NCBI RefSeq assembly: GCF_037201915.1
Contig: NZ_CP147505.1
Location: 2,046,001-2,110,000 of the forward strand
Direction: 5' to 3'
DNA: 64,000 nucleotides
Origin: Haloplanus sp. CK5-1
GTDB taxonomy: Archaea > Halobacteriota > Halobacteria > Halobacteriales > Haloferacaceae
Under the pieces are notes generated by a model. It worked only from the letters and a program-made list of their open reading frames with translations. It was not told the DNA's origin and did no database searches. Below, piece by piece: positions 29,509 through 51,083 of this stretch; position 1 is the first letter of the stretch; each line of letters opens with the position of its first letter. The position numbers and the translations under genes are program-made.

Positions 29509-30813
29509 TCACCACGTCAACCCTTCGTACGTGATCCCGTCGCGTCGCTCGACGATCCGCCGGCCGTCGATCACGACGTCGCCGGACATCAGATCGAACT
29601 CCAGATCGAGGTCGGCAAAGGCCGGCCAGTCCGTGACGACGAGCGTCGCGACGGCTCCCGAGAGGGTCGGCGACGGCGAGGCGAGCACCTCCACGTCCGG
29701 GAACCGCTCGCGGATGGCCGCGGCCGCGCCCTCGTTCGGGTCGTAGGCGACGACCGACGCGCCCCGCTCTTGGAGGCCCTCGATGATCGGGATCGCCCGC
29801 GAGTTGCGCACGTCGTCGGTCCCGGGTTTGAACGCGAGGCCGAGGACGGCGACGCGTTCGCCGGAGACGTCGACGTGGCTATCGAGGAGGTCCAACATCC
29901 GCTGGGGTTGGCGGTCGTTCACGTCGATTGCCGCCTGCAGGAGCGCAGGGTCGTACCCCTCCTCTCGGGCGGCGGCGACGATGGCGTTGACGTCTTTCGG
30001 GAAGCAACTCCCACCAAATCCCACGCCGCTCCGGAGGAACTGCTCGCCGATCCGGTCGTCGAGGCCGATGGCCTCCGCCACCTCGTAGGCGTCGACGCCG
30101 TACTCCTTGCAGATGTTCCCGATGTCGTTGACGAGGCTGACCTTCGCGGCGAGGAAGGCGTTGTTGGCGTATTTGATCATCTCCGCCTCGCGGAGCCCGG
30201 TCCGGACGACCGAGACGTCGGACTTCTCGAGGAGCGGTGCGTACACCGACTCCAGTGCGTCGAGCGCTCGGTCGTCGTCGGCCCCGAAGACGACCTTATC
30301 GGGACTCGTGAAGTCGTCGACGGCGCTCCCCTCGCGCAGGAACTCGGGGTTGGTCGCGAGGCCGAAGTCGACGCCGATCCGCCCGCCGGATTCGAGTTCG
30401 AGCGTCGGCCCGATCACGTCCTCGGTCGTCCCCGGGACGACCGTACTCTTGACGACGACGGTCGGGTAGTCCTCGATGTCGCCGAGGACCCCCCCGAGCG
30501 ATTCGGCGCCGGCCTCGACGACCGCGGTGTCGATGCTCCCGTCGTCGTTCGACGGGGTCGGGAGCGCGAGAAAGATCACGTCGGGACCGAAGTCGACGAG
30601 GTCCCCGTAGTCGGTCGTCGCGAAGAGCGACGACCCGGCGTACTGCGAGAGCAAGTCGCCGAGCCCCGGTTCGGAGATCGGCGCGTCCCCCTCGTTCAGC
30701 CGTCGGACGATCGACTCGTCCACGTCGACGTTCATGACCTCGTGGCCGAGGTCGGCGAAACAGGCCGCGACCGTCGTCCCGACGTAGCCGCTACCGACGA
30801 TACCCAGTTTCAT
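29509..30813 (-). CDS. aglM: UDP-glucose 6-dehydrogenase (AglM)
   Basis: A 434-residue NAD-dependent enzyme that oxidises UDP-glucose to UDP-glucuronate, which supplies glucuronate to the N-glycan in Haloferax. Rossmann motif [13 protein letters not shown] at residues 4-16; catalytic Cys in [10 protein letters not shown] near residue 265; NAD-domain [17 protein letters not shown]. The start MKLGIVG is the conserved family start; an upstream ATG adds nine residues. aglB is 5 kb away, with other genes between, in keeping with the loose agl cluster of haloarchaea. Confidence 0.93.
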
Positions 30814-30867
30814 CACCTCTCCCGTGTTGCGGCGTGGCAAAGAGGATTCGGATACGCGGGCGGCCGA

Positions 30868-34146: not shown

Positions 34147-34350
34147 TCACGCGTCGGCGTCGACGCCGTCGGACTCGATGGGGACGAACGTGCCGTTGAT
34201 ATCCCACTCGTGGATGCAGTACACGTTCCCGACGCGCCGGTCGTCGTTTGCGACGGCGACGCGCCACGTCCCAGTCGCGTCGTTCCACACCTCCCGTCGG
34301 CCACACGCCTCGCACTCCCGCTCGGTCGGTTTCCGGATGGTGATGTCCAT
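34147..34350 (-). CDS. HEWD-family small zinc-binding protein
   Basis: A 67-residue haloarchaeal protein named after its conserved His-Glu-Trp-Asp: the sequence has a CxxC-like ERECEACGRREVW near the start and YCIHEWDINGTF near the end. The paired Cys and the later Cys/His could bind one zinc. Function is unknown. It is divergent from a methyltransferase gene 80 bases away. Confidence 0.9.
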   Translation of the reverse strand: MDITIRKPTERECEACGRREVWNDATGTWRVAVANDDRRVGNVYCIHEWDINGTFVPIESDGVDADA

Positions 34351-34431
34351 ATCCGTGCTACCGCACGACGGGGATTTAATCCTAACTCACCCGGCGCGCG
34401 GTCTTTACATCGCCCGCCCGATAGCTCCTGC

Positions 34432-34992
34432 ATGGGCTTTCACACGTTCGAAACCGACCGGGCCGACGAACTCGAGGACGCGGCCGAGCGGTATCGCTTC
34501 TGCTCGCGCGAGGAACTCCACGCCCTCGTCGGCCCCCACGACGGCATGACGCTCGCGGACGTCGGGAGCGGGACCGGCTTCTACACCGACGCCCTCGCCC
34601 CCCACGCCGGGGCGGTGTACGCCGTCGACGTCCAGTCGGCGATGCACGACCGCTACCGCGAGAAGGGCGTCCCCGACTCGGTCGAACTCGTCGAGGCCGG
34701 GGCCGGCGACCTCCCGTTCGACGCCGGCGCCCTCGACGCCGTCGTCTCCACGATGACGTTCCACGAGTTCGCCGACCCCGACGCGCTGACCGAGGTGGCG
34801 CGGGTTCTCCGCCCCGGCGGCCGCCTCGTCACGGTCGACTGGGACCGCGACGGCGCGGGCGCCGCCGGACCGCCGCGGGCGGAGACCTACTCTCTCGGCG
34901 ACGCCGTCTCGCTCCAGACCGACGCCGGCTTCGCGGTCGAACGCGCCGAGACGCGCCCCGAGACGTACGTCACGGTCGCCCGCCTCGACTAG
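34432..34992 (+). CDS. class I SAM-dependent methyltransferase
   Basis: A 186-residue methyltransferase of the UbiE/COQ5-like type. Motif I is ADVGSGTGFYTDALAPHAG (residues about 42-60); motif II YAVDVQSAMHD; motif IV DAVVSTMTFHEFADPDALTEVARVLRPGGRL. The ATG chosen gives MGFHTFETDRADELED, the usual start; the open frame upstream lies across the promoter. Substrate is unknown. It overlaps the end of the convergent DUF368 gene by four bases. Confidence 0.88.
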   Translation: MGFHTFETDRADELEDAAERYRFCSREELHALVGPHDGMTLADVGSGTGFYTDALAPHAGAVYAVDVQSAMHDRYREKGVPDSVELVEAGAGDLPFDAGALDAVVSTMTFHEFADPDALTEVARVLRPGGRLVTVDWDRDGAGAAGPPRAETYSLGDAVSLQTDAGFAVERAETRPETYVTVARLD

Positions 34993-35945
34993 GCGTCCGT
35001 GTCGGTGTCCGTTGCCAACCCGCCGGTGTACCGCTCCAATCCGAGGACGGCGACGGCCCCGACGACAGCCGCGAGCGCGAAGGCGAGCGCCGCGTCGGCG
35101 GTCCACCCGACCGACAGGTCCCGCCCGGCCTCGACGACCGGCGCGCGCAACCCGCCGACGACGAGGCTCACGAGGAAGGAGAGCGTCGCGGCGCGGTACC
35201 GCTCCAGCGCCCAGCGGACGGCGTGGGCGACGGTGAACAGGCCGACGACCGCCCCGGCGACGAACGCGACGACGGTCCGACCGGGGTCGACCACCGCCGT
35301 CACGCTCCCGCCCACCGCGAGACCGAGAAGCGCGTCGACGAAGGCCGTCAGTCGGTCGACGAGGAACTCGTACTGCCCGAGGATGACGAGGATGAGCGAC
35401 CCCGAGATGCCGGGCAGGACCATGGCGCTGATGGCGACGGCACCGACGGCGACGACGACGGGCGTCGTCGAGGGGAGCGCCGCGGCGGCCTGTCCGCCGG
35501 CGACGAAGGCGAGGAGGAACCCGCCGACCGCCGCACCAACCCGGCCCGGCGTATCGAGGCTGACCTCCGAGGAGAGGACGACCGCAGACGCGGCGATCAA
35601 TCCGAAAAAGAAGCCGAAGGTTGCGACAGGGTCGGACCCGAGGGCGATGTGGAGGACCCGCGTCGCCACGACGACGGCGGTGACGATGCCGCCGCCGAGT
35701 GCGCCGAGAAAGAGGCCGTCGACCTCGCGGAACGCCTCGCGGGCGTCGGCCCACCGGCCCGGTAGGGGCGCGGCGAGGACGCGTCGGATCCGCCCCGGCG
35801 TGACCGCGGTGATCGCACCGATCAGTCGCTCGTAGACGCCGACGACGAGCGCGATGGTGCCGCCCGAGACGCCCGGCACCGCGTCGGCTGCCCCCATGCA
35901 GATCCCCTTCAGGTAGACGACGACGATGGGGTGGAGGCGTCGCAT
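34989..35945 (-). CDS. DUF368 polytopic membrane protein, candidate polyprenyl-phosphate translocase
   Basis: A 318-residue membrane protein with about eight to ten helices. The N-terminal signature LKGICMGAADAVPGVSGGTIALVVGVYERLI and the internal echo AISAMVLPGISGSLILVILGQYEFLV are the inverted-repeat motifs of DUF368. Bacterial DUF368 proteins (PopT) were shown to recycle undecaprenyl phosphate across the membrane. Here the gene is six bases downstream of aglB on the same strand, so the archaeal carrier would be dolichyl phosphate released by N-glycosylation. Family is certain, archaeal substrate is inference. Confidence 0.88.
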   Translation of the reverse strand: MRRLHPIVVVYLKGICMGAADAVPGVSGGTIALVVGVYERLIGAITAVTPGRIRRVLAAPLPGRWADAREAFREVDGLFLGALGGGIVTAVVVATRVLHIALGSDPVATFGFFFGLIAASAVVLSSEVSLDTPGRVGAAVGGFLLAFVAGGQAAAALPSTTPVVVAVGAVAISAMVLPGISGSLILVILGQYEFLVDRLTAFVDALLGLAVGGSVTAVVDPGRTVVAFVAGAVVGLFTVAHAVRWALERYRAATLSFLVSLVVGGLRAPVVEAGRDLSVGWTADAALAFALAAVVGAVAVLGLERYTGGLATDTDTDA

Positions 35946-35951
35946 CCGGCG

Positions 35952-38900
35952 TCAGTTCTCCGATCGGGCGACGGCCGCCGCGGTCGGGGCATCGTGCGAC
36001 GACGCGGTCGGGCCGGCCGTGGTGTCGTCGCCGGTGTCACCCGAAGCGCCCGTCGCTCCGGTGGGTCGCGTCTCGGTCGGTTCGATCGGTTCGATCGACT
36101 CCGACGACTCGTTCCCGCCGCCGAGGGAGATGTTCTGGAGCGGGTTGGTCTCTTCGAGCGTCACCTCACGCTCGCCGGAGACGTCGCCGTTGACCCGCCC
36201 CTCCTCGATCTGGATCTCGGACTGGTACTGGACGATCGACCCGTTGTCGTTGGCGAGCGACGACTGGATCATGTACGGCCCGGCGGCCCGGACGCTCACG
36301 TTGGTGTAGCCGTTCTCGGGCCCGTACTCGTCGTAGCCGGTCGTGGCGTACGGGAGCGTCATCGAGAGCTCCCCGTCCTCGTTCGTCCTCGTCTCTTGGG
36401 TGTAGCTGAACGTCTCGTTCGTCGCCGGAACGCGCATCGGCACCGTCGCCCGGACCGAGATGTTCGCGGGGAGTCCGTCGGCCGTGACCGTCGCACCGGG
36501 CACCTTCTCGAAGGTCTTCACCCACGACGGCTCGTAGAGCGTCTGGCTGGACGGCGGGACACCCGTCACCGCGAACTCTTGGCGTTGGAGACGCTGGTAC
36601 CGTCCGGACTGGTTGACGGCCGAGGACTCGCTCACTTTCACCAGCCGGTAGTGCTCCAGTGCGGGCACGCGCTCCGACGGATAGTGGCCGACGCCGCCCA
36701 CTTGGGCGGTTCCGTCCTCCTCGACGTAGGTTCGTGCGGCCGACAGGTTACCGAACTGCCGAACCATCGACTGATCCTCGCCTTGCGGTCCGGTTCGGAC
36801 GGTGAGTTCCTCACCGCTCTGTGTCTGGACCCGTCGCTCCTCCCAGTCGACGACGATAGGTTCGGGATCCATGCTACTCCCGTGGTAGGCGTATAGCCGA
36901 ACCATCTGACTCTCGTAGTAGCGCTGGGTGCGCAACTGGAACGCCCCACGGAGGTTGCTGGTGTACACCGGTCCGTAGAAGTCCGACGACGAGACGTCCG
37001 ACTCGTCGTAGAACGTCACCGGCGCGCCGAACTTGGACTGGGGGTGGACCATCTGCCAGTCGACCATCACGTATCGCGTCCCGGCGGCCTCCTCGTCGCG
37101 TTCACCGAGGGCGTCCTGTGCGGCCGACTCGTTGGGGGCGAGCAGGTAGTTCGCCGCGTCGGTCGCGCCCTGCTGGAACGGGTTGGCGTTCGGAATGCGC
37201 TCGCTCTGTAGGGTGATCCAGTGCCCGTAGTCCCACCACGACTGCACGCCGTAGGCCCCGGCCGGGTAGTCGTAGTCGTCGGTTCGGTCGTAGGTGCCGT
37301 AGTACTCCATCCCGTTGCTCGCTCCGCCGAACGTCCCGGGGGCAGGGGTGTTCGACTCCATCCACTCGAGCGAGCCCTCCCACTCCGTGACCGCGCCGAT
37401 GCCGGCCTGTTGGCCCGCCTGCCACGCGGTGTCGCTCCGGTCTATCTGCGGGTTGCCGGTGCCGCGAACGCTCATCGGGACGAGCAACACCGGCGTGATG
37501 ATCAGCATCGCGGCCGCGAGCACCGCGATGACTTGGTATCCCTTCAAGTCGCGGACCGTATCGAGCGTGCCGGAGCGCAAGTCGAGATACGAGAGGATCT
37601 GGCCGATCAGGTAGGCGTTCGCGACGGCGACGATGGGCGCGAGGTAGTAGTTGAACCGCACCTGCGTGAACGCCGCCGACGTGATGAAGGCCGCCCAGAT
37701 CACGAACAGGAGTTTCTCCGCGTCGTAGTTCGTCTGGAGGGTCGCCCCGAACAGGATCAGCGCCACCAGCGCGACGCCGATGAGTTCGGAGACGATACCC
37801 AGGCTGTCGGCCAGCGCCCGGAAGGGGCCGGGGACGAGGAAGAGTAAGCCCAGAACGAAGAGGCTCCCGACCGCGTAGCCGACCCGTTCGGTCTCGCCGT
37901 CGCGCACCAGCGGTTTCGCGATCAGCCAGATGATGGCTACGACGCCGGTGAAGAGGGCAAAGCCGTAGTCTGCCATGATGCGCCCGGTGGCGGTCATGCG
38001 GTTCCGTTCGAGGATGTCCGGGGCGAGGTAGGGTTGGGCCTCGGAGATGGTCCGGAGTCCCGCGGTGGCGCTGAAGCCAATGAATCGGAGGGCATTGTTC
38101 TGGATCGTCCCGAACAGCGACGGGAGGACGACGGCCACGACGGCGGCGGCGGCGGCGAGGATTCCCACGACGGCCGCGGGGTAGTACGAGCGGTCGATAT
38201 CGCGGTCGTCGAACACCCGCGCCAACCCGGCCATGAACGCCGCGCCGCCGGCGACGCCGGTCGCGACGGCGGGCTGGAGGAGGCCGAAGTCCGTCGGACT
38301 GAAGCTCATCTCCTCGAACTTGAGAAGCATCAGGATCGCCGCGACCACCATCGAGACGACGCCGACGAACGCGACCGGTTCGGGGGTCCCGCCGGTGGTG
38401 TAGTCGCTGACGAGTTGGTAGATGAGATACGTCCCGAAGATGCCGACCAGCAGGACGCCCGGCGGCCACACCCACATGTAGAGGGCGACGGCGACGCCCG
38501 CGAGCGCGCTCCACAGGAAGGGTTCGCGGAGCGCCTCCACGTCGCGGTCGAGGACGAGTTCCCAGATGGGTTTCTCCCGGACTGCGACCCCGACCGCGAC
38601 CATCAGCGCCAGCACCGCGATCGTCTGGAAGAGCGGTTCGGCGATGTTGTGGTCGGCGAAGCCGACGAGGCTCCGCTGGAGGAACTGTCCCGGGAGGAGG
38701 AGGAGGACGACGGCCCCGAAGAGGCCGGCGACCCGTCCCGCGAGGCGCTTCCCGACGGCGTACGTCGGGAGTGCGACCAGCGCCCCGAACACCGCAGGGG
38801 CGACCAGCAGCGTCTTGGCGATCAGCTCTCCCGAGGGACTCCCGAGGCCGACGACCAGCGCCGCGGTGGCGATCAACTGGTCGTACAGCGTCCCGAACTG

Positions 38901-39167
38901 TGCCGCGTGGGTCCCGTACGGGAAGTTCGTCCACGGGTCGAACGGCATCGTGAACGGCCAGTTCTGCACCGCGTACTCGACCTGACGGAGGTGGTACCAG
39001 GCGTCGTTGCCGGAGAAGTACACCTCGCCGTCCCGGACGAACGTGTCGTACTCTTGGAGGCGAATGGCGAGCATCCCCGCGACGACGGCGACGAGCGCGG
39101 GGACGTGATACCAGTCGAAAAAGAGGTCTGCGACGGAGGAGGACCCCTGACTCTGATCGTCGCTCAT
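35952..39167 (-). CDS. aglB: oligosaccharyltransferase AglB (STT3-like)
   Basis: A 1071-residue enzyme that transfers glycans from dolichyl phosphate to Asn in Asn-x-Ser/Thr. About 13 membrane helices occupy the first half, with the acidic metal ligand in YFSGNDAWYHLRQ (about residue 52) and the ADHNIAEP loop (about 170). The catalytic WWDYG motif is in GVQSWWDYGHWITL near residue 642. A long extracellular domain follows, with many Asn-x-Ser/Thr sites and a Thr/Ser-rich C-terminal tail. aglG is divergent, DUF368 follows on the same strand. Length matches haloarchaeal AglB. Confidence 0.96.
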   Translation of the reverse strand: MSDDQSQGSSSVADLFFDWYHVPALVAVVAGMLAIRLQEYDTFVRDGEVYFSGNDAWYHLRQVEYAVQNWPFTMPFDPWTNFPYGTHAAQFGTLYDQLIATAALVVGLGSPSGELIAKTLLVAPAVFGALVALPTYAVGKRLAGRVAGLFGAVVLLLLPGQFLQRSLVGFADHNIAEPLFQTIAVLALMVAVGVAVREKPIWELVLDRDVEALREPFLWSALAGVAVALYMWVWPPGVLLVGIFGTYLIYQLVSDYTTGGTPEPVAFVGVVSMVVAAILMLLKFEEMSFSPTDFGLLQPAVATGVAGGAAFMAGLARVFDDRDIDRSYYPAAVVGILAAAAAVVAVVLPSLFGTIQNNALRFIGFSATAGLRTISEAQPYLAPDILERNRMTATGRIMADYGFALFTGVVAIIWLIAKPLVRDGETERVGYAVGSLFVLGLLFLVPGPFRALADSLGIVSELIGVALVALILFGATLQTNYDAEKLLFVIWAAFITSAAFTQVRFNYYLAPIVAVANAYLIGQILSYLDLRSGTLDTVRDLKGYQVIAVLAAAMLIITPVLLVPMSVRGTGNPQIDRSDTAWQAGQQAGIGAVTEWEGSLEWMESNTPAPGTFGGASNGMEYYGTYDRTDDYDYPAGAYGVQSWWDYGHWITLQSERIPNANPFQQGATDAANYLLAPNESAAQDALGERDEEAAGTRYVMVDWQMVHPQSKFGAPVTFYDESDVSSSDFYGPVYTSNLRGAFQLRTQRYYESQMVRLYAYHGSSMDPEPIVVDWEERRVQTQSGEELTVRTGPQGEDQSMVRQFGNLSAARTYVEEDGTAQVGGVGHYPSERVPALEHYRLVKVSESSAVNQSGRYQRLQRQEFAVTGVPPSSQTLYEPSWVKTFEKVPGATVTADGLPANISVRATVPMRVPATNETFSYTQETRTNEDGELSMTLPYATTGYDEYGPENGYTNVSVRAAGPYMIQSSLANDNGSIVQYQSEIQIEEGRVNGDVSGEREVTLEETNPLQNISLGGGNESSESIEPIEPTETRPTGATGASGDTGDDTTAGPTASSHDAPTAAAVARSEN

Positions 39168-39308
39168 TGGCCGAACGGACTGGGATTACGGGCATAAACC
39201 TTGTTATCTGTCGGTGGTCGGAACGGATTTGCGTCCCGAACTGCCGCCGTCTCACGGCGTCGGAGTCAACGAAAACGCTTATTCGCGGCTCGGCGGTACG
39301 TCGGGTCG

Positions 39309-40247
39309 ATGCAGGTGTCGGTCGTCGTCTGTACGTACGCGATGGATCGGTACGACGCGTTCACCGAGGCCGTCGAGAGCGTCCTCGCACAGACGTACGA
39401 CCCCATCGAGGTCGTCCTCGTCGTCGACGGGAACCCCGAAGTCTACGAGCGCGTACGCGAAGACTTCTGTGAACGCGAGCATGTCGTCTGCCACAACAAC
39501 GACGAGAACCGGGGAATCTCCTACTCGCGGACGAAGGGGGCTGAGCTTGCGAGCGGCGACATCGTTGCGTTCATCGACGACGACGCGGCGGCGGAGCCGG
39601 ACTGGGTGTCGAATCTGGTCGACATCTACGAGAACACCGACGCGATTGCAGTTGGCGGGGACGTGAAGCCGGACTGGCAGACTGAGAAACCGGACTTCTT
39701 CCCGGAGGAGTTCTACTGGCTGGTTGGCTGCGTGGAGCCCGGATTCGCTGAGGATGGCGAGGAAGTCCGGAACACGTATGGGTCGAACATCTCCTACCGG
39801 CGGGAGCAGTTTCTGGAAGTCGGTGGCTACGACCCGAATACCGGGCGAAAGGGCGACAAGCACCTACAGGCGCATGAGGCGCCCGTTGGGATTCGGCTAT
39901 TGAAGGAGTACGGGAAAGGGATGGTGTTCACCGAGGACGCCGTGGTTCATCACAAGCTCTTCGACTACCGCGGGGAGTTCGGGTGGTTGGTATCGCGGTC
40001 GTTCTGGCAGGGGTACTCCAAGCGCGTGATGGACTTGTTGTATCCAGATGCGCCCGACGACAAGAGCGCGTATCTTAAGCAGCTGTTGACGCACTTCGTC
40101 CCGAAACGCGTGAAGGAGCTAGTTCGGTCGCCATCGAGAGCTGAAGTGAAGCAGCTGCTCTCGATTTTCGTGTTCACGGGGGCTGTCGGGCTCGGGTACC
40201 TGTACGCGATTCTGACCCCGAACGTCGTGGAGAAGGCTAACGCTTAG
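39309..40247 (+). CDS. aglG: family 2 glycosyltransferase AglG
   Basis: A 312-residue GT-A transferase, the same size as Haloferax AglG, which adds a hexuronic acid to the lipid-linked glycan. The start MQVSVVVCTYAMDRYD matches the family; DGNPEVYERV and the metal-binding FIDDDAAAEPDW are the nucleotide-sugar motifs, followed by NISYRREQFLEVGGYD. A C-terminal helix (VFTGAVGLGYLYAIL) should anchor it to the membrane. It is divergent from aglB as in other haloarchaea. A CTTATTC element about 25 bases before ATG suggests a leaderless start. It overlaps the convergent aglF by four bases. Confidence 0.9.
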   Translation: MQVSVVVCTYAMDRYDAFTEAVESVLAQTYDPIEVVLVVDGNPEVYERVREDFCEREHVVCHNNDENRGISYSRTKGAELASGDIVAFIDDDAAAEPDWVSNLVDIYENTDAIAVGGDVKPDWQTEKPDFFPEEFYWLVGCVEPGFAEDGEEVRNTYGSNISYRREQFLEVGGYDPNTGRKGDKHLQAHEAPVGIRLLKEYGKGMVFTEDAVVHHKLFDYRGEFGWLVSRSFWQGYSKRVMDLLYPDAPDDKSAYLKQLLTHFVPKRVKELVRSPSRAEVKQLLSIFVFTGAVGLGYLYAILTPNVVEKANA

Positions 40248-40990
40248 GATTCCGCTTCAAGCGAATCTTCAGTGTCCCGTTTCTCTTGAAGGCGTTTCTC
40301 AGCTTCGTCACGGTCCTCCGGGTAACCAATATCAATACGCCATCCCTCCAAACCAATAGCGTCGATCGTCCGGCCCGAATGAATGAGTAGATCGATAGCG
40401 TCGCTAATCTCGTACTCATCCCGACCGGATGGTTGTACGAGCTTGCAAGCGTGGAAAATTGCTGGTGTAAACGTATAGAATCCGGTCATCACGAGATTCG
40501 AGGGTGGGTCGTCCGGTTTTTCGATGACTTCTTCGATTTCACCATACTTGTTCGTGTCACAGACACCGTATCGTGATGCCTCCTCGTAGGGAACCTCCTC
40601 AACTAGGAACGCTGCGTCTGCACGGTCTTCCTTCTGGCGCCGGACGACATCGTCAAGATTCGCGGAGAAGACGTTGTCCCCGAGCATTAGCATGAAGTCG
40701 TGGTCAATATGTTCCTCCGCACAGAGAAGGGCGTGAGCGAGCCCCTTCTGTTCGCGCTGATGTGTATACGTAATTGGGATTCCTTCGAACTCATCGCCGT
40801 AGTGGCTGATAATATCCTGTTTTCGATAGCCGACGACGACGACGAGTTTTTCGGCGCCGAGCTCGACGAGCTGTTCAAAACAGTGTGTAAGAATCGGTTT
40901 CCCCGCGACTTCGACCATCCCTTTCGGTTTATTTTCCGTGAGTGGACGAAGTCGTGTGCCCTCTCCAGCGGCAAGAACTACTGCTTGCAT
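40244..40990 (-). CDS. aglF: sugar-1-phosphate nucleotidyltransferase AglF
   Basis: A 248-residue nucleotidyltransferase that makes UDP- or dTDP-glucose from glucose-1-phosphate; in Haloferax, AglF feeds the glucuronate branch. The signature VVLAAGEGTRLRPLTENKPK is at residues 4-23, with LMLGDNVFSANL and the C-terminal WRIDIGYPEDRDEAEKRL. The true start is MQAVVLAAGEG; the open frame upstream adds 23 unlikely residues. A decayed second copy lies at 51.2 kb. Confidence 0.9.
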   Translation of the reverse strand: MQAVVLAAGEGTRLRPLTENKPKGMVEVAGKPILTHCFEQLVELGAEKLVVVVGYRKQDIISHYGDEFEGIPITYTHQREQKGLAHALLCAEEHIDHDFMLMLGDNVFSANLDDVVRRQKEDRADAAFLVEEVPYEEASRYGVCDTNKYGEIEEVIEKPDDPPSNLVMTGFYTFTPAIFHACKLVQPSGRDEYEISDAIDLLIHSGRTIDAIGLEGWRIDIGYPEDRDEAEKRLQEKRDTEDSLEAES

Positions 40991-41059
40991 ACTCTCGGAT
41001 AGAGAAGCCGGAGGTAAATAGGTTTCAGTAGAATCCAACTGATATCCTATATAAGTCAA

Positions 41060-42932: not shown

Positions 42933-43781
42933 ATGGGTTCCGAAATCCAGAAAGAAAAGTTGGTAGTCTATACTGCTATCTTCGGCGATTATGATATTCT
43001 CATGGAACCAAAAGGAGTGCCTGATGAAGTCGATCTAGTCTGTTTCACGGATAACCCAAACCTTCAGACCAACAAGTGGGAAATCCGCGTCGTCAGCGAG
43101 GAACTGACACCCGCGATGAGCAATCGTAAAATCAAGATTCTCCCGCATCGGTATCTCTCAGACTACGACTACAGCATCTACATTGATGGAAACGTTCATA
43201 TTGTCGACGACGTGAGCGAGCTTGCGTCAAAATACCTATCAAAATACCCGCTCGTTGTACCACCCCATCCCAAACGAGACTGTGTATACGACGAAGCGGA
43301 GGTATGTATTCAATCGGGGAAAGCTGACGAGAAGCCGATGCGAGAGATGATGAATCGGTACTCCGCGGACGGATTCCCTCAAAATTTCGGCCTGTCCGAA
43401 AACAACGTTATTCTGCGTGAACACCACGATGATGACGTACAGAGCTTGATGAATGAATGGTGGGAGGAAGTTCGCAACGGACCAGGTCGTGACCAGCTTT
43501 CACTTCCCTACGTGCTCTGGAGGAATGAGCACAAACTCCACAAATTGGACTTCATCCCTCGAACCCATGGCCAATATTTTATATTCTACCCACACAGAGA
43601 GTCAGGAACCAAACTATTCTGGATTCCGTATATTCGGATAACAACTAGGTTTAGCAAGCCTGTTGAGCGACGAGTTGCGGGACTCATCGGCGACGCCGTA
43701 CATGCTCAACGAAGTGGTGGAATTAGCGAACTGGCAAACAAAACTGTTAGGATTCTTTTGGAGAAGGTCTCTCCGCAATAG
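42933..43781 (+). CDS. DUF616-like glycosyltransferase-domain protein
   Basis: A 282-residue protein. The start KLVVYTAIFGDYDILMEPKG and YSIYIDGNVHIVDDV match the DUF616/TOD1-like glycosyltransferase group, where the Asp pair binds the nucleotide sugar. FPQNFGLSENNVILREH and DQLSLPYVLWR follow, typical of the family. The last 60 residues have no known domain. It runs against the genes on both sides and overlaps the next convergent gene by 35 bases. Acceptor unknown; likely a surface glycan. Confidence 0.78.
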   Translation: MGSEIQKEKLVVYTAIFGDYDILMEPKGVPDEVDLVCFTDNPNLQTNKWEIRVVSEELTPAMSNRKIKILPHRYLSDYDYSIYIDGNVHIVDDVSELASKYLSKYPLVVPPHPKRDCVYDEAEVCIQSGKADEKPMREMMNRYSADGFPQNFGLSENNVILREHHDDDVQSLMNEWWEEVRNGPGRDQLSLPYVLWRNEHKLHKLDFIPRTHGQYFIFYPHRESGTKLFWIPYIRITTRFSKPVERRVAGLIGDAVHAQRSGGISELANKTVRILLEKVSPQ

Positions 43782-49679: not shown

Positions 49680-51083
49680 TTAGAGAGGGATGTTATGCTT
49701 AACTGTCGTTCGGAATTCTTTCGATATGGACAGTAAAGACCCGAAATAGATTGCCGCGCCGATACCAACGAGGAATATTATAACAGAGAGAGAGGACCCA
49801 AAGAGAGCACGCCCAACAAATACGGCGACAGCCATAATCATCGCTGATAGACACTGCTTAGAAATTTCTTTGATAGGTATATCTATACTGATTACTTTAT
49901 TAGCGTAATAATATGAGAGTAGAAGCCCTAAACCCGCGGAGACCGTCGTTGCTACTGCTGCACCGTACCAACCGAACTGCCACGTAAGGACGACATTTAA
50001 TCCAATATTTACTGCGGCGAATGCGGCATTAATGTGGAACGTCAGGTTGGGGTAATCAAGAGCGTTAATTGTATTCAGAAATTGACCCATATATCCGTAC
50101 AGCAGACGCGCAAAGGTAAGGACGAGCAAGATATAGTAACCAGCGTCAAAGCCAGAACCGTAGATAGTTAATACGACATCACCAACAAGCGCTGCTCCGA
50201 CCATCCCAGGAATGATAAATAGCCCCGAATATGCGAGACTTACTTCCAGAAGGTCCGATATCTCGTTCTCTGAACCTCCTGCTGAAGATATCTTACTCAT
50301 CTCAGGGAATAGGGTTCGAGAAATAGACGCGCCAAATGTAGCGAATAAAGATGCAAGATTCCACGCAATTTCATAGACTGCGACGAGGCTATGAGAGACG
50401 AAGACAGCTAGAATTAGCGTATCCATCGACAAAAACGTCCGCCCTTTGATTGACCCGAGCCAAGAAAACTGGGCGTATTCTTTCAACCGAGAGAATTCCT
50501 GACGCGATGGGCGCGTCCGTGGAATTGTGATGAAATACGCGCCAATAATAGTTGCTACTATTGTACCAACAACGTAACCAGCGAATGCGCCAGCAAGTCC
50601 GAACCCAGAAAGGACAAGCGTGACCTGAACGATGCTTCGGCTCGTCCACTGAACGGGGGACAAAATACTAGATACATGTACAAGATGTTGACCATCTAGA
50701 ACGGTCCGAACGAATCCGTATGCAAGTCGACCGGCTAGCATTATAATAATGACCCACGTCGCCATGACCTCCATAAAGTCGTTGAGGTATGGTTGGGCCA
50801 CCAAAAGGCAAACAGCAACAAAACTGTACATCCCAAACTGTACAATTGCTCCAGAAAGTACGTAATTCCCCTCTCCGGACTCACTAACGCGTTTCTTGAC
50901 TGCTTGTGGCAACCCAAACTCTCCTGCTAAGGACACCCATGAGAGTACTGATAACACGACAACGTACGTCCCGTACCTGCTCTGGCCGAGCGTCCGTGTT
51001 AGGACGATTGTCGCAATAAAACCCGCGAGAGAAACCGCTAGTTGCGACAAAAAATTCACCATCGAAGTACGGCCGTATTTCAT
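49680..51083 (-). CDS. lipid-linked-oligosaccharide flippase (AglR/Wzx-like)
   Basis: A 467-residue membrane protein with 12-14 helices of the MOP superfamily (polysaccharide transporter). Start MKYGRTSMVNFLSQLAVSLAGFIATIVLTRTLG; DTLILAVFVSHSLVAVYEIA and the paired GLFIIPGMVGAALVG helices are typical. Such proteins flip the dolichol-bound glycan outward; Haloferax AglR is the known counterpart, but sequence diverges enough that I give no symbol. AT-richer than the rhamnose genes. Confidence 0.86.
   Translation of the reverse strand: MKYGRTSMVNFLSQLAVSLAGFIATIVLTRTLGQSRYGTYVVVLSVLSWVSLAGEFGLPQAVKKRVSESGEGNYVLSGAIVQFGMYSFVAVCLLVAQPYLNDFMEVMATWVIIIMLAGRLAYGFVRTVLDGQHLVHVSSILSPVQWTSRSIVQVTLVLSGFGLAGAFAGYVVGTIVATIIGAYFITIPRTRPSRQEFSRLKEYAQFSWLGSIKGRTFLSMDTLILAVFVSHSLVAVYEIAWNLASLFATFGASISRTLFPEMSKISSAGGSENEISDLLEVSLAYSGLFIIPGMVGAALVGDVVLTIYGSGFDAGYYILLVLTFARLLYGYMGQFLNTINALDYPNLTFHINAAFAAVNIGLNVVLTWQFGWYGAAVATTVSAGLGLLLSYYYANKVISIDIPIKEISKQCLSAMIMAVAVFVGRALFGSSLSVIIFLVGIGAAIYFGSLLSISKEFRTTVKHNIPL

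Follow-up and report, generated by a model that had tools for sequence, protein, structure and literature searches.

Linkage of aglB with a PopT-family gene across Halobacteria points to a candidate dolichyl phosphate translocase

The gene for the archaeal oligosaccharyltransferase AglB and a gene for a polytopic membrane protein of the DUF368 (PopT-like) family lie side by side in a large share of haloarchaeal genomes, and this adjacency is far beyond chance. We describe the pair in a 64,000-nucleotide stretch of the Haloplanus sp. CK5-1 genome (contig NZ_CP147505.1, positions 2,046,001 to 2,110,000), referred to below as the window, and in other archaea. Our best reading is that the DUF368 protein of the window is likely to be a PopT-family translocase, expressed with AglB, that returns from the outer face the dolichyl phosphate (Dol-P) that AglB releases. 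To our knowledge, the return of spent dolichyl phosphate to the cytoplasmic side is unsettled in archaea, and the same holds for eukaryotes. As far as the literature that we searched extends, the new element is the class-wide bond of an archaeal oligosaccharyltransferase with a PopT-family protein; both protein families were already known.

The aglB-DUF368 pair in the window

The aglB gene of the window (35952..39167, minus strand) encodes a protein of 1071 aa that scores 918.7 bits against TIGR04154 (cut-off 450) and also carries the STT3, AglB_core and AglB_L1 domains. Judged by these profile matches, the product is a full-length archaeosortase-associated oligosaccharyltransferase of the haloarchaeal type, and the WWDYG motif can be read in its translation. 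The DUF368 gene (34989..35945, minus strand, 318 aa), a candidate for a dolichyl phosphate recycling translocase, follows on the same strand, with its ATG separated from the aglB stop by 6 nt (35946..35951), just as the initial annotation of this DNA had reported. The two genes form a unit bounded on both sides. Below, a convergent methyltransferase-like gene (34210..34992, plus strand) overlaps DUF368 by 4 nt and closes the unit; it probably has no share in the DUF368/AglB function. Above, a gene for an aglG-type glucosyl-dolichyl phosphate glucuronosyltransferase (about 39201..40247, plus strand; NF041394, 526.7 bits, cut-off 440) is divergent from aglB; because its family match begins at residue 37, its true start is probably near 39309.

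The surrounding agl cluster is of the Haloferax kind, with aglG, an aglF-type UTP--glucose-1-phosphate uridylyltransferase gene (40244..41059, minus strand; NF041313, 435.5 bits, cut-off 400) and an aglM-type UDP-glucose 6-dehydrogenase gene (29509..30840, minus strand; NF041297, 710.1 bits, cut-off 670) all exceeding curated cut-offs. The cluster also encodes additional glycosyltransferases and sugar-nucleotide enzymes, as well as a Wzx-like flippase (49680-51083). Genes of a Dol-P-type pathway are present in the window genome, as the name of the AglG model itself conveys. One other gene of the cluster (42933-43781) matches TOD1/MUCI70 (PF04765), a glycosyltransferase-like domain known mainly from plants.

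Family assignment and published function

The DUF368 protein of the window matches PF04018 (DUF368 / VCA0040-like) with 200.7 bits against a gathering cut-off of 26, over residues 17-268, and this is the only Pfam family that it matches at E <= 0.001; PF09335 (DedA / UptA) was not among its matches. Against the NCBIfam PopT equivalogs NF052563 and NF052564 it scores 68 and 169 bits, under the 400-bit cut-offs, so that by profile score it is related to these polyprenyl-phosphate transporter models, though below their curated thresholds. In an alignment of 37 haloarchaeal, Thermoplasmata and bacterial rows (A2), 28 columns are invariant and a further 18 nearly so, those of PGVSGG and LPGISG included. 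Residues P24, G25, S27 and G28, together with L177, P178, G179, S181 and G182 of the window protein, belong to the invariant set, and both PGxSG motifs are kept in it and are invariant or nearly so over the 37 rows. The bacterial PopT proteins VCA0040 (Vibrio cholerae) and SAOUHSC_00846 (Staphylococcus aureus) share the Pfam family and the invariant columns with the window protein. As far as profiles and alignment can tell, the family assignment holds at the Pfam level and in the conserved motifs.

The AlphaFold2 model of the protein is confident and all-helical (pLDDT 92.6, pTM 0.86), and two of its helices break at residues 23-27 and 177-181, which are the two PGxSG motifs, in keeping with a PopT-family protein. 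In this model the motifs would correspond to a pair of re-entrant hairpins within a two-fold repeat. A sequence search of solved structures returned no relative, and Foldseek with the model gave no match at E <= 0.001. The top VIA-align match was a ZIP transporter (Z 8.8, rmsd 4.1, 161 aligned), a level that is common for helical models.

Bacterial DUF368 proteins were described by Sit et al. (2022) as recycling undecaprenyl phosphate, with polyprenyl-phosphate recycling phenotypes in bacterial DUF368 mutants, and a Vibrio cholerae DUF368 mutant was at least partially complemented by the homologue from Haloferax volcanii; the H. volcanii protein modelled in that study is HVO_RS12060 (PMC9876793). 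In the portion of the article available to us, dolichol phosphate is mentioned once, in general terms, and salt adaptation is discussed as a role for DUF368. That discussion, the scores below the PopT equivalog cut-offs and the want of an informative match among solved structures would all suit a haloarchaeal protein that moves a different phospholipid or an ion and does not share the polyprenyl-phosphate role of its bacterial relatives. We consider this improbable, since the H. volcanii protein partially complements the Vibrio mutant (PMC9876793) and since the 28 columns that include both PGxSG cores are invariant between the haloarchaeal and the bacterial rows of the alignment.

Proposed role in N-glycosylation

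According to the part of PMC4476749 that we draw on, dolichol monophosphate is the carrier from which the archaeal glycans so far characterised are derived. In the reading that we favor, AglB would move the glycan from dolichyl monophosphate to the S-layer and other proteins at the outer face and would release Dol-P itself on that face, so that no pyrophosphatase would be needed before the carrier returns. The DUF368 protein would bring Dol-P back inward, and enzymes on the cytoplasmic side would recharge it with sugar. The initial annotation spoke of dolichyl (pyro)phosphate left outside by AglB; the monophosphate is the form expected in haloarchaea, and the pyrophosphate is best dropped from that statement. 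It had also named the DUF368 protein a candidate Dol-P recycling translocase. The family, the motifs, the operon link and the partial complementation by the H. volcanii homologue (PMC9876793) make the protein a strong candidate for this role; that its substrate is Dol-P, that it works inward, that AglB supplies most of this substrate and what powers the transport are inferred. A second correction to the initial annotation is that one archaeal DUF368, the only one for which we found a test, had previously been put through complementation (PMC9876793).

The candidate differs from bacterial PopT in being archaeal, in acting presumably on dolichyl rather than undecaprenyl phosphate, in being linked to an oligosaccharyltransferase and in scoring below the equivalog cut-offs. 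Two other kinds of membrane protein bear on the same lipid carriers. The AglR, Agl15 and Wzx-type flippases belong to the same haloarchaeal N-glycosylation pathway, but they are described as moving sugar-charged Dol-P outwards, which is opposite to the step proposed here. The DedA / UptA undecaprenyl-phosphate translocases have been proposed for the same job as DUF368, but they form a different family (PF09335). The window genome encodes three DedA-domain proteins, one of them weakly UptA-like, all from genes far from aglB, so recycling may be redundant and a single deletion may look mild.

Distribution of the linkage in Halobacteria

We searched 145 Halobacteria genomes of at least 90% completeness with PF04018 and TIGR04154 and compared the positions of the matches, counting a DUF368 gene as linked when it lies on the same strand as aglB, downstream of it and within 3 kb between the matched domains. 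Of the 145 genomes, G021 alone lacks DUF368, and in a larger sample of the class the gene was found in 386 of 391. The five genomes in which it was missed (G021, G422, G441, G541 and G616) are each assembled in 90 to 180 contigs. A linked copy occurs in 99 of the 145 genomes, which represent 41 of 58 genera and 9 of 10 families, and this disposes of the possibility, raised by the initial annotation as a reason to abandon its proposal, that the adjacency would not be found outside this genome. Among 19 publicly named haloarchaeal loci scanned by contig, 11 are linked, including those of Halolamina salifodinae, Halorubrum coriense, Haladaptatus salinisoli, Haloglomus irregulare and Halorhabdus amylolytica.

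About one third of haloarchaea have lost the adjacency and carry unlinked copies. In 45 of the 145 genomes DUF368 lies away from aglB, in one of them (G043) by just 3.2 kb; the non-linked copies other than that of G043 are at least 122 kb from aglB or on a different contig. Neither a divergent DUF368 nor one nearby upstream of aglB was seen in any of the 145 genomes.

Some individual genomes deserve mention. G118 (group f4 g22; 4.3 Mb in 8 contigs) has no aglB above the TIGR04154 cut-off (best E 1.3e-22) and keeps an unlinked DUF368. Two genomes of one genus carry a C-terminal DUF368 fragment covering 43-50 profile positions (G074:C1:2722822-2722971 and G090:C25:154401-154529), located 1.0-1.5 kb past a full aglB-linked copy, and these fragments look like a decayed duplication. 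In G021, which lacks DUF368, there is a DedA protein, P0003, for which just 2 of the 144 other genomes hold a strong relative (E < 1e-30); a swap of DUF368 for DedA in this genome was considered and dropped, as a DedA protein of the window genome fits the UptA model better than P0003 does (51.8 vs 33 bits).

Gene spacing and conservation of the neighborhood

For a closer comparison we took 114 DUF368 loci. Every one of the 54 non-adjacent rows was included, and 60 were drawn from the 99 adjacent rows, with a maximum of two from any genus. Together with G043, this gives 61 loci that have aglB upstream. The distance from the aglB stop to the DUF368 start is -4 to 157 nt in 58 of the 61 (median 16.5), and the two genes abut or overlap in 18 of them. 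The remainder of the neighborhood is far less constant. Within about 8 kb in the 60 linked loci, homologues were found of the aglG-like gene in 28, of a DAO gene in 25, of the Wzx-like gene in 18 and of aglM in 4, and no other gene of the window has a nearby homologue in more than 28 of the 60. The corresponding 60 out of 60 for the pair itself holds by construction, because the loci were picked as linked, and the fair figure is 99 of 145. Neighbors other than the pair decay much faster and are mostly scrambled. That the pair persists over 9 families while the flanking genes are lost suggests selection for the pairing itself. Both the operon position by which the initial annotation connected the two genes and the class-wide adjacency are strongly supported.

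In the five examined g3, g7 and g16 loci in which aglB is set apart from DUF368 (L068, L109, L225, L226 and L227), the space between holds one or two genes, and an aglM homologue is among them in all five; those of L068 and L109, the two that were scored, exceed the curated aglM cut-off. In L109, L225, L226 and L227 the aglM homologue is on the opposite strand, and therefore aglB and DUF368 are not one transcript there.

H. volcanii itself may be arranged in a similar way. Its aglB is HVO_RS12050, with aglF, aglI and aglG carrying the tags 12035, 12040 and 12045 (PMC5131992, PMC7749143), so that HVO_RS12060 is two locus tags from aglB, with the order read from the tags. Because the tags there step by five, the cited portions of these sources leave room for at most one gene between the two, compared with the 6-nt gap of the window, and by analogy with the g3, g7 and g16 loci this gene is probably aglM. 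The agl cluster of H. volcanii is described as running from aglJ to aglM in the part of PMC5867893 that we draw on, which would put DUF368 just beyond the drawn edge. The complementation by HVO_RS12060 and its closeness to aglB are thus two printed facts that apparently had not been joined. A text search of the available PMC9876793 returned no occurrence of aglB, text searches of PMC5898192 and PMC4973528 returned no match to DUF368, and our literature search found no paper with both; Roney and Rudner (2022), which the search did not cover, may say more.

History of DUF368 in Halobacteria and beyond

We built a quick maximum-likelihood tree from 98 DUF368 proteins, with SH-aLRT supports only and with one bacterial outgroup row on the wrong side of the root. 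It places all haloarchaeal copies in a single clade (SH-aLRT 100). The aglB-linked state is spread over the deep branches of this clade, with nine changes of state in all, and because of this spread it is most simply taken as ancestral; from the tree, the linked state looks ancestral in haloarchaeal DUF368. As haloarchaeal DUF368 is monophyletic, the pair need have arisen only once, and the nine changes show that the pair can be broken, which would fit an adjacency that is a neutral remnant of ancestral gene order with no functional meaning. We would be surprised if this were so, given that other neighbors decay much faster, that the distances between aglB and DUF368 stay short or overlapping, and that an agl gene is among the intervening genes in the g3, g7 and g16 loci.

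One apparently mobile subclade, nested within the linked copies (SH-aLRT 96), takes in most of the unlinked ones, with members in families f3, f4 and f8 and on a Haladaptatus plasmid. The plasmid-borne copy (L143, Haladaptatus pallidirubidus plasmid unnamed6, 8001-8907), whose match is split in two pieces, is in line with the subclade spreading between families. Six genomes (G005, G025, G044, G091, G107 and G143) have both a linked and an unlinked copy, and in most f4 genera and several f3 genera unlinked copies alone remain. Since unlinked copies remain where the linked gene is gone, the function is nearly always kept. No conserved neighbor was found in more than 17 of the 45 unlinked-group loci.

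These patterns can also be read as those of a general housekeeper, a DUF368 protein that brings back Dol-P, or some other polyprenyl phosphate, whichever outer-face pathway has left it there (among them exopolysaccharide, AglS-type mannosyl transfer and low-salt glycans), with the position next to aglB merely inherited or convenient for co-expression. The near universality of DUF368 in the class (386 of 391), the service of about one third of genomes by unlinked copies with no widely shared neighbor, and the four loci in which an opposite-strand aglM homologue splits the pair, so that co-transcription is not needed, all favor this alternative, which differs from our best explanation in the source of the substrate while the reaction is the same. 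The persistence of the pair across 9 families as its flanks are lost suggests selection for the pairing and tells against it, and we rate the housekeeper as a real contender, somewhat short of an even chance. At the other extreme, AglB and the linked DUF368 could form a coupled pair, perhaps touching, in which spent Dol-P is handed straight to a dedicated inward translocase. This we think unlikely; if true, an oligosaccharyltransferase would have its own lipid-carrier return pump, and the unlinked mobile subclade would be a second type without coupling.

Outside Halobacteria, none of 42 carriers from the same phylum has DUF368 adjacent to STT3, and the three STT3-bearing controls M. jannaschii, S. 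acidocaldarius and M. acetivorans have no match to PF04018; DUF368 is therefore not required for archaeal N-glycosylation in general. In 5 of the 42 carriers, which are 5 of the 7 members of family f28, DUF368 lies 12-16 kb from STT3. We dropped this distance as support for linkage, as in L201, the one f28 locus whose neighbors were searched, DUF368 is next to a uracil phosphoribosyltransferase gene, followed by a permease gene. A single case, which we did not count as linkage either, is a locus of Thermoplasmata archaeon AUK133 (L181, 1515-8172), where an STT3-like gene and a DUF368 gene of the same strand are separated by 1.9 kb and by two genes that by eye are AMMECR1-like and dihydroorotase-like, and where DUF368 overlaps its upstream neighbor by 4 nt. 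Separately, tandem pairs of DUF368 matches were seen on eleven bacterial contigs with mostly Bacteroidota-type titles (L142, L149, L150, L151, L153, L172, L177, L182, L184, L189 and L191).

Conclusions

With a candidate that is nearly universal, mostly linked to aglB and found in archaea amenable to genetics, the return of spent Dol-P becomes open to a simple experiment of deletion and lipid labelling. H. volcanii, unlike the organism of the window, offers both genetic tools and a published agl pathway. If the reading that we favor is correct, archaeal DUF368 would gain a role in physiology that is not assigned to it in the portion of the 2022 Nature paper available to us (PMC9876793).
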